Position numbers and translations under genes: made by a program. Under the pieces are notes generated by a model, which saw only the letters and a list, made by a program, of their open reading frames with translations, searched no databases and had not been told where the DNA came from. Below are positions 19,180-25,139 of a stretch of 64,000 nucleotides of DNA, piece by piece (position 1 is the stretch's first letter; each line of letters starts with the position of its first letter). This DNA comes from Sphingorhabdus sp. 109 (lineage in GTDB: Bacteria; Pseudomonadota; Alphaproteobacteria; Sphingomonadales; Sphingomonadaceae): assembly GCF_902506555.1 (NCBI RefSeq), contig NZ_LR732707.1, forward strand, positions 3,061,290-3,125,289, read 5' to 3'.

Positions 19180-19527
19180 ATGGCGTCGATGCGAGGCAGC
19201 TGCCACTGCGGCGCGGTGCTAATCACCGTCCCGTCCCCGCCCGAACAGGTGACGCGCTGCAACTGCTCGCTGTGCCGCATGACCGGCTGGATCGGCGGCT
19301 ACTGGCATCCCGATGAGGTGACGATAGAAGCGCAGCCCGATGCGCTGAACCCTTATGTCCAGGGCGACAGGATGATCACCACATGGAATTGCGCCCGCTG
19401 CGGCACGCCTGGCCACTGGACCCCGCGGACCGCGCCGCCCGAACGCATGGGCGTGAATATGCGGATATTCGATAGCCAGGAGTGGCGCCATCTGCCGGTT
19501 CTGGACGTTGACGGCGCGCGCTTCTAG
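19180..19527 (+). CDS. GFA/CENP-V family zinc protein
   Basis: 115 residues. The start GSCHCGAV and the later CNCSLCRMTG, plus CARCGTPG, give the cysteine pattern of the GFA (glutathione-dependent formaldehyde-activating)/CENP-V fold, which binds two zinc ions. Many members are not formaldehyde enzymes, so only the fold is claimed. The ATG comes one base after the sirtuin stop codon, which implies coupled translation. An in-frame ATG at 19189 (MRGSCHCGA) is possible. Confidence 0.88.
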   Translation: MASMRGSCHCGAVLITVPSPPEQVTRCNCSLCRMTGWIGGYWHPDEVTIEAQPDALNPYVQGDRMITTWNCARCGTPGHWTPRTAPPERMGVNMRIFDSQEWRHLPVLDVDGARF

Positions 19528-19651
19528 CCACGCGCGGCGTAAAGACTCTTCTTTTCAATATGATAATGGTTCGTTAAGCCGATTGCAGTTTTGCCGTTGA
19601 TTACAGTTGTCGCGGCAACCGGACAACGAACTAGCGACAGGGAGTAAAATT

Positions 19652-19810
19652 ATGAACGAGAATGAGCAGAAGCCTGCTGGCCGGATCGGGAAAAGAAAAT
19701 ATGAAAAGCCGACCCTTGTCCTGTTGAGCGATCCGACGAGGGTTGAAGGAAAGACTTTCTCGCGCACCTACGAGGGCACGTCTGCGGGTCGTGGTTTCGG
19801 AGTCAGCTAG
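19652..19810 (+). CDS. orphan lasso-type RiPP precursor-like peptide
   Basis: 52 residues, with GGGAG seven bases before ATG at 19652. The N-terminal half (KRKYEKPTLVLLSDPT) has the Y-x2-P-x-L pattern of lasso-peptide leaders, the site read by the RiPP recognition element. The C-terminal GKTFSRTYEGTSAGRGFGVS could be a core in which G33 and E41 would be nine residues apart, a permitted ring size. Against it: there is no Thr two residues before this Gly, and no B (protease), C (cyclase) or transporter gene in the window. It is best called precursor-like. A non-RiPP small protein is possible. Confidence 0.6.
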   Translation: MNENEQKPAGRIGKRKYEKPTLVLLSDPTRVEGKTFSRTYEGTSAGRGFGVS

Positions 19811-23440: not shown

Positions 23441-24778
23441 CTAGCCGGCCCGCTGTTCGTATTCATTCGCCCGACTGCCGGCGCCAACTCCGGCGAACAG
23501 GCACAGGGCCAGTCCGGCAAGAGACAGGGCAGCTACCGCATAATAGGCCCCCGCATAGCCGCTGCTTTCGACGACCCATCCCGAGCCGCCCGATAAGAGT
23601 GACCTGGCGAGATTGGGAGCGGCCATGAACAGGGCAAACAGACTTGCGGCAACGGTCGGATCGCAAAGTCGCATCGCCCAGACGATGAGAACGATGGTCA
23701 GGAGAAGTGCGACAATATACTGGATAGCATATATTGCCATGAAGGCTGTACTGCCCTGCCATATTTTATAGGTTGCACCCGCTAGGATTGCCGCAAGAGC
23801 CAGGATAAGAAAAAGCACCGTCGTAGAATTGCGCAGGCCCGCCCAGCGCACGAGAAATGTTGTCATCGTGGCACCGGCGATTGCTGCGACCAGCCCGACA
23901 ACACTGGCAAAACTGCTGTAGTCGTCACTCCCCCAGCCCAGTTGCTGGACCGCGAGCGGGGGCGCGACGGAATCCAGGAAAGCAAAAGTTGCCATGGCCA
24001 ATCCGGCCCCGGCCAGGAACAGGAGAGTCTGCAGCGATAGCAATGACCTGAAAATACCCGCGAGGATCGGGAGCCAGGCTGCGTGCTGGCGTTCGGTGCA
24101 TTCTGATGAAGGTCGGCCGCCGGTCCAAGGGAAAAGCCGTTCTCCGGGCCGTTCCCGGAACAGCGAAACGAACAGGGAAGCAATCCCGACAAAAAGGCCA
24201 AACAGAAGCGCCATGATCGAAATTTGGTCATCGACCAACAGTTGTCCGGCGATAAAGGCGGCGGTAGAAATGCCCAGTGTCTGGGAAGCAAACATGAAGC
24301 CATTAACGGTGGTTCGCTCTTCTTCCGGCACGAGGTCAACCGTCATGCCATCGACGGCCACATCATTGAAGGTGGCGCACAGATTGAGTGTGAAACAGAA
24401 GGCCGTGAGCAATAATATCTGGCTGGCAGCCGGATCGGCAATTGCCAGGCCGAACAAGGTTGTCATCATCAATGTTTGAGCGACCAATATCCATGACCGA
24501 CGCCTGCCCATCGGTCGATAGGTAAACCGGTCCATCAAAAGGCCGTTAAAAAGTTTCAGCGACCAGGGGAATAACGCTGTTCCCACAAAGCCGCCAATTT
24601 CTATCGGCGAGGCGCCTCGGTCTGCGAGCCAGGCGGGAATGGCGATCGTGCTCAACCCGACAACGATACCCTGCATGAAATAGAGCAATATGATCGCGGT
24701 ACACCGCAAATATATGCTTTCGGACATTGCCGGAAAAGCAGGGTAACCCCGGTGGAGGGCAGGACTTGGATCATCCAT
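23441..24778 (-). CDS. MFS transporter, AmpG-like
   Basis: 445 residues with 12 predicted membrane helices. The loop between helices 2 and 3 holds LMDRFTYRPMGRRRSW, which resembles the AmpG/PAT-type motif A. The substrate is unknown; related proteins move muropeptides or acetyl-CoA-type solutes. The start ATG at 24778 overlaps the stop of the upstream SnoaL-like gene (ATGGATGA), so translation is probably coupled. An ATG at 24796 is also in frame. Confidence 0.88.
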   Translation of the reverse strand: MDDPSPALHRGYPAFPAMSESIYLRCTAIILLYFMQGIVVGLSTIAIPAWLADRGASPIEIGGFVGTALFPWSLKLFNGLLMDRFTYRPMGRRRSWILVAQTLMMTTLFGLAIADPAASQILLLTAFCFTLNLCATFNDVAVDGMTVDLVPEEERTTVNGFMFASQTLGISTAAFIAGQLLVDDQISIMALLFGLFVGIASLFVSLFRERPGERLFPWTGGRPSSECTERQHAAWLPILAGIFRSLLSLQTLLFLAGAGLAMATFAFLDSVAPPLAVQQLGWGSDDYSSFASVVGLVAAIAGATMTTFLVRWAGLRNSTTVLFLILALAAILAGATYKIWQGSTAFMAIYAIQYIVALLLTIVLIVWAMRLCDPTVAASLFALFMAAPNLARSLLSGGSGWVVESSGYAGAYYAVAALSLAGLALCLFAGVGAGSRANEYEQRAG

Positions 24779-25139
24779 AAAAAAATCGCTCTTCAACGAT
24801 CTTTTGGTCGCGGACGCTGTAGGTGGCGATCTCGCTAAAAGGTTGCCGCTCGCCCGTGGCGCGGCGCTTGATCAACATGTCTATAAACAGAGCAAAATGG
24901 TCGCCTGTGATAAAAGGGCCATCAATGTTGAGCTCTTCCATCGCGCTGTGCTCCAGCCAGCTAGTCAGCTTGTCGTGCGCGGCCTTATATCCCGATACGA
25001 TGGCCGGGCCACGTCCCCTGCTATTATCCGGCTCCATGCTGACGATATCGACGGCCCAATATTTTTCTGCCGCAGAAACCGCCCGCCCACTTAGTAGCAA
25101 TGATGAAAAATCATGCGCCAGATCTCCAAGATCATTCAT
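24771..25139 (-). CDS. SnoaL-like protein
   Basis: 122 residues, NTF2-like fold. LGDLAHDFSSLLLSGRAVSAAEKYWAVD begins the family pattern, followed by GYKAAHDKLTSWLEH and IDGPFITGDHFALFIDM. The last strand, IATYSVRDQKIVEERFFYG, is the usual SnoaL end. It is probably a small isomerase, hydratase or lyase. It overlaps the MFS gene, so the two work as a pair, perhaps transport and modification of one compound. Confidence 0.82.
   Translation of the reverse strand: MNDLGDLAHDFSSLLLSGRAVSAAEKYWAVDIVSMEPDNSRGRGPAIVSGYKAAHDKLTSWLEHSAMEELNIDGPFITGDHFALFIDMLIKRRATGERQPFSEIATYSVRDQKIVEERFFYG

Follow-up and report, generated by a model that had tools for sequence, protein, structure and literature searches.

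The stretch of DNA analysed here, which we call the window, comprises 64,000 nucleotides of the genome of Sphingorhabdus sp. 109 (G000; C2:3061290–3125289). Behind genes of the SIR2 and GFA families, it contains an intact 52-codon open reading frame (ORF) on the + strand at positions 19652–19810 (C2:3080941–3081096 on the chromosome). The 52-residue product, MNENEQKPAGRIGKRKYEKPTLVLLSDPTRVEGKTFSRTYEGTSAGRGFGVS, is divided by us into a leader, MNENEQKPAGRIGKRKYEKPTLVLLSDPTRVE, and a core, GKTFSRTYEGTSAGRGFGVS, at a predicted boundary. A sequence-only reading of this DNA had proposed an orphan, lasso-type precursor here, served by remote enzymes, or else a distinct class, and translation bears out the description on which that proposal was based: a leader-like YEKPTL occupies residues 17–22, and in the 20-residue C-terminal part, Gly33 to Glu41 span nine residues inclusive. 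The features of the locus are as follows:

19652–19810, + strand: gene for the putative lasso-type precursor (A), 52 aa (ORF translation, homologues and alignment of 17 members).
19522–19651, + strand: upstream region alignable with the upstream regions of five array members in the genomes G024 and G015 (six sequences, 63% mean column identity).
19639–19644, + strand: probable ribosome-binding site AGGGAG, a few bases before the ATG (read from the sequence).
19652–19747, + strand: predicted leader, residues 1–32, ending in ...TRVE (boundary placed by the alignment and by Thr at −2 in 10/17; predicted cleavage).
19700–19717, + strand: YEKPTL, residues 17–22, presumed binding motif of B1 (RRE), with Tyr at −16 ([YW].KP in 17/17, Y/W at −15 to −17).
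19748–19807, + strand: predicted core, residues 33–52, GKTFSRTYE followed by GTSAGRGFGVS, with a predicted macrolactam between Gly33 and Glu41 (Glu at core position 8/9 in 17/17).
19805–19807, + strand: codon of the C-terminal Ser (Ser52), predicted kinase target (Ser last in 17/17; HprK-like protein in the genome).

Near the gene, we found neither a sigma-70 consensus site nor an Rfam match. Could so short an ORF be open merely by chance? The window protein matched nothing in Pfam or NCBIfam; all 17 members of its family (described below) likewise lacked NCBIfam matches, and in Pfam they gave only three single-member matches, with E ≥ 0.15. Against a chance ORF stand the conserved homologues behind SIR2 and GFA genes in two species and the fixed pattern that runs through the entire family. 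This conservation already refutes the explanation, to which we assign a negligible probability. The ORF is a real gene that very probably encodes the precursor of a lasso peptide.

The single protein was searched against 98 genomes (G000 included), 22 of which had a match at E ≤ 1, mostly weak. Outside G000, the best matches came from two species of its genus (G024 and G015), and G003 gave a weaker one. At the matching place behind the SIR2 and GFA genes, G024 has a tandem array of three precursors and G015 one of two. A profile built from 12 members (A1) was then run over 32 genomes of the genus. Its matches at E ≤ 0.1 comprised four in G000, 11 in G024 and five in G015, besides a single match in G003 and weak hits in G029 and G007; no plasmid-borne relative was found at this threshold. 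We count 17 members (alignment A2) from three related species: ten in G024, four in G015, and three in G000 (the window gene, C2:2829519–2829668 and C2:3362060–3362191). Left out of the count are the weak G029 and G007 matches, two G000 matches (E of 0.38 and 0.95) that showed no such ORF, a degenerate relative in G003, three peptides with the tail SEIHEKTDALLTSLFRAS, and precursor-like genes of other genera (G033, G226, G054 and G135), some of them without Lys at core position 2.

Two of these excluded groups have features of their own. The G003 relative (L034:3210–3386) has a YERP leader and keeps the GK start of the core, with Glu at core position 11 and none at 8 or 9. The SEIHEKTDALLTSLFRAS-tail peptides (L069/L095 at G000:C2:2059334–2059408, L076 in G024, L089/L098 in G015) are 42–48 residues long and have a YxKPEL leader; they are near-identical overall, their tail is identical in three species, and no acid occupies the lasso position. 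They are possibly a different RiPP, or a peptide of fixed function, with the same leader.

Comparison of the homologues, as the sequence-only reading had suggested, reveals a conserved frame: the leader motif, Lys34, Glu41 and the terminal Ser of the window precursor recur in its relatives. Core position 1 was fixed by an invariant Lys column, that is, by alignment, and the cleavage is a predicted one. In this numbering, residue 1 is Gly in 14 members (Gly33 in the window precursor), Ser in two and Ala in one; position 2 is Lys in all 17 (window positions 19751–19753); and Glu lies at position 9 in 11 members, the window precursor with its Glu41 included, and at position 8 in six. The 17 cores contain 17 Glu in total, every one of them at 8 or 9. 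When the core residues were shuffled 20000 times, Glu fell at 8/9 in an average of 2.3 of the 17 members, with a maximum of nine. The predicted ring sizes are 8 and 9, and the tails behind the ring Glu vary from 7 to 11 residues across the family.

The Thr customary at position −2 had been noted as absent from the window precursor, and indeed the residue there is Val, which only one other member has in common with it. Position −2 is Thr in ten members, Ala in three, Val in two and Ser in two. Ile, Val and Ala are known exceptions to Thr(−2). Lasso precursors with Ile or Val(−2) are described in PMC10368454 from groups that include the Sphingomonadales; a kinase or phosphotransferase is encoded in each of the Sphingomonadales clusters that its authors found. 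With Thr(−2) present in 10/17 members and Ile/Val(−2) precursors in print, Val(−2) need not stand in the way of a lasso assignment. The same source places the leader motif at −17 to −12; the YEKPTL spacing of the window precursor, with its Tyr at −16, is one residue shorter.

The alignment displayed neither an intact hydrophobic helix nor core conservation outside RiPP logic, with one exception: the invariant Lys2, a residue that is not required by lasso chemistry and that lasso logic does not explain. Its presence in 17/17, while residue 1 varies (Gly in 14, Ser in two, Ala in one), favours a RiPP that is made by lasso-type enzymes with another linkage, either a side-chain amide between Lys2 and Glu8/9 that leaves residue 1 free or an unthreaded ring. 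Asparagine-synthetase-type lasso C enzymes, however, use the N-terminal amine. Moreover, the leader-related genes of G033 and G226 have Glu at position 8 yet no Lys2, their cores starting with Gly-Pro and Gly-Thr. We consider such a linkage very improbable.

A shared upstream regulatory motif of the dispersed precursor genes was sought with a Gibbs sampler and not found. For the upstream regions of 15 of the 17 members, it scored 114.1, 130.9 and 144.0 at widths of 10, 14 and 18, where the highest scores among four letter-shuffled controls per width were 108.4, 129.3 and 143.4; the sampler was home-made, and the controls got fewer restarts, which favours the real set.

The window holds no lasso protease or cyclase gene, just as the sequence-only reading had it: none of the listed Transglut_core3, Asn_synthase or PqqD matches falls inside. 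The further claim that the window lacks a transporter gene was not quite accurate, for an MFS transporter gene is located at 23441–24796. Nothing ties this gene to the peptide. By eye, MFS genes of the same kind occupy the matching place in G024 (L031:15119–16489) and G015 (L032:14201–15550). Two other genes are candidates for export: the MFS gene next to the B2 gene (see below) in G000 and, by eye, in G024 also, and a gene for a 1102-residue permease/FG-GAP protein. The latter is a fusion of an ArsP_1 permease with FG-GAP repeats and UnbV_ASPIC (L031:10505–13813 and L032:10162–13470); it directly follows the precursor array in G024 and G015, occurs in two of the 32 genus genomes and has no match in G000. 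A protein with a CxxxCxxC-type motif is encoded beside three precursors, one in G000 and two in G024 (L094:9292–9993, L097:9033–9674 and L037:8585–9292), and the one of the three that was tested corresponds to Pfam CxxCxxCC. It is a possible tailoring partner.

A search for lasso B and C proteins elsewhere in the genome had been recommended, and it located homologues of B1, B2 and C. In genome-wide Pfam searches, Transglut_core3, Asn_synthase and PqqD proteins occur together at C2:3457844–3460418, a locus (L055, about 3.458–3.461 Mb) that lies ~377 kb from the window precursor gene. Six Asn_synthase and three PqqD matches in the genome exceed the Pfam cut-offs, as does only one Transglut_core3 protein, the one at L055. 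On the NCBIfam lasso models, B1 (83.8 bits, cut-off 80) and B2 (74 bits, cut-off 33) pass, and the best model for C, lass_lactam_cya, gives 226.7 bits, below its cut-off of 525. C keeps SGGIDS. We could not assign a catalytic Asp in B2, a point that we count against maturation in trans. The same B1-B2-C set is present in G024 and G015, with B1 87–88% identical. Beside L055, no family-like precursor was found among the small ORFs with a leader motif in 18.5 kb, a search that a precursor of another kind could escape; beside the sets of G024 and G015, nothing resembling the family was found in 19.5 kb, and no profile member is there. A precursor gene usually lies within its B/C cluster, an arrangement that the chemistry does not require. 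The window gene does not lie within such a cluster; its distance from the enzymes bears on gene layout, not on the identity of the peptide.

The conserved residues of the family, together with the B1, B2 and C homologues 377 kb away, lend computational support to the proposal of an orphan precursor served by remote enzymes, as do leader-related genes situated 2–5 kb from a B2 relative in two other genera. We consider it likely that the window gene supplies the precursor (A) for a class II-like lasso peptide, with maturation in trans.

L055 is not the only candidate for the source of the enzymes. A second, partial lasso-type locus (L056, about C2 1.988–1.998 Mb) carries genes for a PqqD protein (with 59.6 bits, short of the 80 that lasso_PqqD_Bac demands), a lasso-C-like protein (248.4 bits, below the cut-off of 525), an HprK-like kinase near 1.992 Mb, a sulfotransferase, a GT8 glycosyltransferase and a Trp_halogenase-family protein. 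With PqqD, lasso-C-like, HprK-like, sulfotransferase and GT8 proteins to offer, this locus might mature a real precursor encoded in the window. However, the sole Transglut_core3 protein over the cut-off in the whole genome sits at L055, and none is near the precursor-like gene that L056 has of its own (L056:7919–8095). The product of that gene, WDRPTVLTFDVIRATE-GGTFDFNSPGDDAWYSS, has a different, WDRP leader and acids at core positions 5, 11 and 12, with none at 7–9. According to PMC13381572, whether the leader motif begins with W or Y directs recognition by two Bacillota RREs; substitutions were tolerated in part, and FusB1, another RRE, bound leaders of both kinds. The analogy with those two RREs suggests that precursors with Y leaders go to B1 of L055 and those with W leaders to the adjoining PqqD (at L056, and at L037 in G024). 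Maturation of the window precursor by L056 seems unlikely to us.

The kinase of L056 may nevertheless take part in maturation by the L055 enzymes. The HprK-like proteins of G000, G024 and G015 (L056, L090 and L091) carry an H...GxxGxGKS...DD motif; in Pfam Hpr_kinase_C, the L056 protein scores 28.9 bits (below the cut-off of 33.3) and the L090 protein 35.7. In G024 and G015 the kinase adjoins B1-B2-C, and in G000 it does not. Because PadeK, ThcoK and SyanK (the last from Sphingobium) are reported to phosphorylate the C-terminal Ser of lasso precursors (PMC9266682, in part), the invariant terminal Ser of the family fits paeninodin-type kinases. The genes for such a modification are present, namely precursors ending in Ser and HprK-like proteins, and phosphorylation is predicted. 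A GT8 glycosyltransferase recurs in kinase-bearing lasso-type loci (L037:4312–5196, L056:10980–11867 and L137:8633–9556).

An orphan precursor may also be a relic that was left after its cluster broke up and processing was lost. The 1102-residue gene beside the arrays of G024 and G015 is missing from G000; the degenerate relative in G003 (L034:3210–3386) lacks Glu at positions 8/9; and G002, a genome outside the clade of G000, G015 and G024 and 80% complete, has a B2 gene, a B1 match of 35 residues and no precursor match, and none of the ORFs on its 10.8 kb contig was recognised as C. All of this is in keeping with decay. In the window gene, however, the ORF, the ribosome-binding site, Glu41 and the terminal Ser are all intact, and G000 has open reading frames for B1, B2 and C alike. 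Furthermore, dN is lower than dS when the window gene is compared with its counterpart, the first array gene of G024 (leader, 0.32 and 0.76; core, 0.36 and 1.21), although these are rough estimates from hand-gapped alignments of very short sequences. Four pairs were compared in this manner. The counterpart pair L031c/L032b has a conserved leader (dN 0.05, dS 0.21) and a core that changes fast (dN 0.60, dS 0.40), and in two of the four pairs, dS was saturated in the leader or in both parts. We judge that a decaying relic is an improbable explanation, and maturation in trans by the L055 enzymes continues to be our preferred one.

In a tree of 20 genomes built from the SIR2 gene alone, G000, G015 and G024 form one clade (86/89). 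For this reason, their joint possession of precursors and enzymes is counted as a single event, and the co-occurrence at the level of the genus (the same 3/32 genomes) was not used as statistics. We examined instead 396 genomes drawn evenly from the order. Five of them have a match to the A2 profile at E ≤ 0.01, and 23 have one to B2 of L055 at E ≤ 1e-10. Four genomes belong to both groups (hypergeometric probability 4e-5, or 0.008 without G000 and G024), and 19 of the 23 have no match to the precursor profile. The fifth precursor match, in G389, which has no B2 match, is not beside a B2 gene in the ORF lists read by eye, and it is probably due to chance.

From other genera, seven regions that surround a B2 relative or a precursor match were read by eye as ORF lists. 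A precursor-type gene in G033 (E of 7.5e-6) lies about 1.9 kb from B2, and weak matches in G054 (E of 0.0066 and 0.0094) lie 4–5 kb from B2; this layout resembles that of a classic lasso cluster. The closest B2 outside the genus in the sample (64%) belongs to G247, in which a single stretch contains a precursor-like ORF with a W leader and a final Ser, a motif-bearing kinase, a B1 relative, a GT8 protein and B2; by look only, the intervening ORFs resemble a sulfotransferase and C. Near the B2 gene of G515, no precursor, B1 or C was recognised in the by-eye list. Taken together, this looks like a normal lasso family, in one clade of which precursors and enzymes were separated and the precursors multiplied.

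Based on homology, maturation of the window precursor might proceed as follows. The PqqD-like B1 from L055 would bind the YEKPTL leader, and the HprK-like lasso kinase from L056 would phosphorylate the C-terminal Ser52. The B2 cysteine protease would cut after Val-Glu(32), and the asparagine-synthetase-like C would close a nine-residue macrolactam between the amine of Gly33 and the side chain of Glu41, with the tail GTSAGRGFGVS threading the ring. The same enzymes could serve at least two further dispersed precursors of G000, those at C2:2829519–2829668 and C2:3362060–3362191. All of the chemical steps and the pairing of precursor with enzymes are inferred from sequence. The weakest links are this chemistry, the unexplained Lys2, and the assignment to L055 over L056. 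We also count against maturation in trans the rarity of Val(−2) in the family, the C score below its cut-off, the kinase apart from B1-B2-C in G000, the single event behind the co-occurrence in G000, G015 and G024, the negative outcome of the search for a common upstream motif, the weakness of the G054 matches, and the B2 genes without a precursor match in G002, in G025 (which has two B2-family proteins of its own) and in 19 of the 23 order-level genomes.

For the clade as a whole, we lean towards a decentralised lasso system. Its single B1-B2-C set, with no local precursor, would serve 3 to 10 precursors scattered along the chromosome, each on its own or grouped in short tandem arrays, as a lasso counterpart of the prochlorosins. 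The precursors would have a fixed frame (Y/WxKP leader, small-Lys start, Glu8/9 and terminal Ser) around hypervariable cores.

The peptide class, its enzymes, Val(−2) and the C-terminal Ser are already known; the unusual part is the layout. The family resembles paeninodin (PadeA/PadeK) and SyanA/SyanK of Sphingobium yanoikuyae, which are phosphorylated class II systems with separate B1 and B2. In those systems, precursor, kinase and B/C share one cluster, whereas the precursors of G000 are dispersed and the kinase belongs to another locus. Presumably, the core pattern of the family (GK...E...GPS) also differs from the paeninodin and Syan sequences. A YxxPxL leader, Ile/Val(−2) and an associated kinase are further features of BsfA of Bradymonas sediminis and of precursors from Acidobacteriaceae and Sphingomonadales (PMC10368454, in part), and our family may overlap with the Sphingomonadales sequences of that paper. 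Unlike the window precursor, BsfA is encoded inside its cluster and receives its phosphate at Ser3, in the ring; the window precursor has its Tyr at −16 and its conserved Ser at the C-terminus. The likeness to prochlorosins and synechococsins, the lanthipeptides of ProcM and SyncM, is one of genome layout only: according to PMC10783134, a single enzyme there acts on many precursors, which combine conserved leaders with variable cores and some of which are scattered singly over the genome. Their lanthionine chemistry and their enzymes are unrelated to those considered here. A search by title and abstract opening, with most subscription journals outside its range, returned no report of dispersed lasso precursors served in trans, and the portion of a 2026 review available to us (PMC13352647) uses neither “orphan” nor “multiple precursor”.

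Lasso peptides are usually sought beside the genes for B and C. Should one enzyme set be able to serve precursors encoded hundreds of kilobases from it, some will have been overlooked and lasso diversity undercounted; mining that is limited to the neighbourhoods of lasso cyclases would miss such precursors. Across the three species, one could also readily compare the features that a promiscuous lasso machinery would fix with those that it would allow to vary, with ring sizes of 8 and 9, Thr, Val, Ala or Ser at position −2, and tails of 7 to 11 residues.
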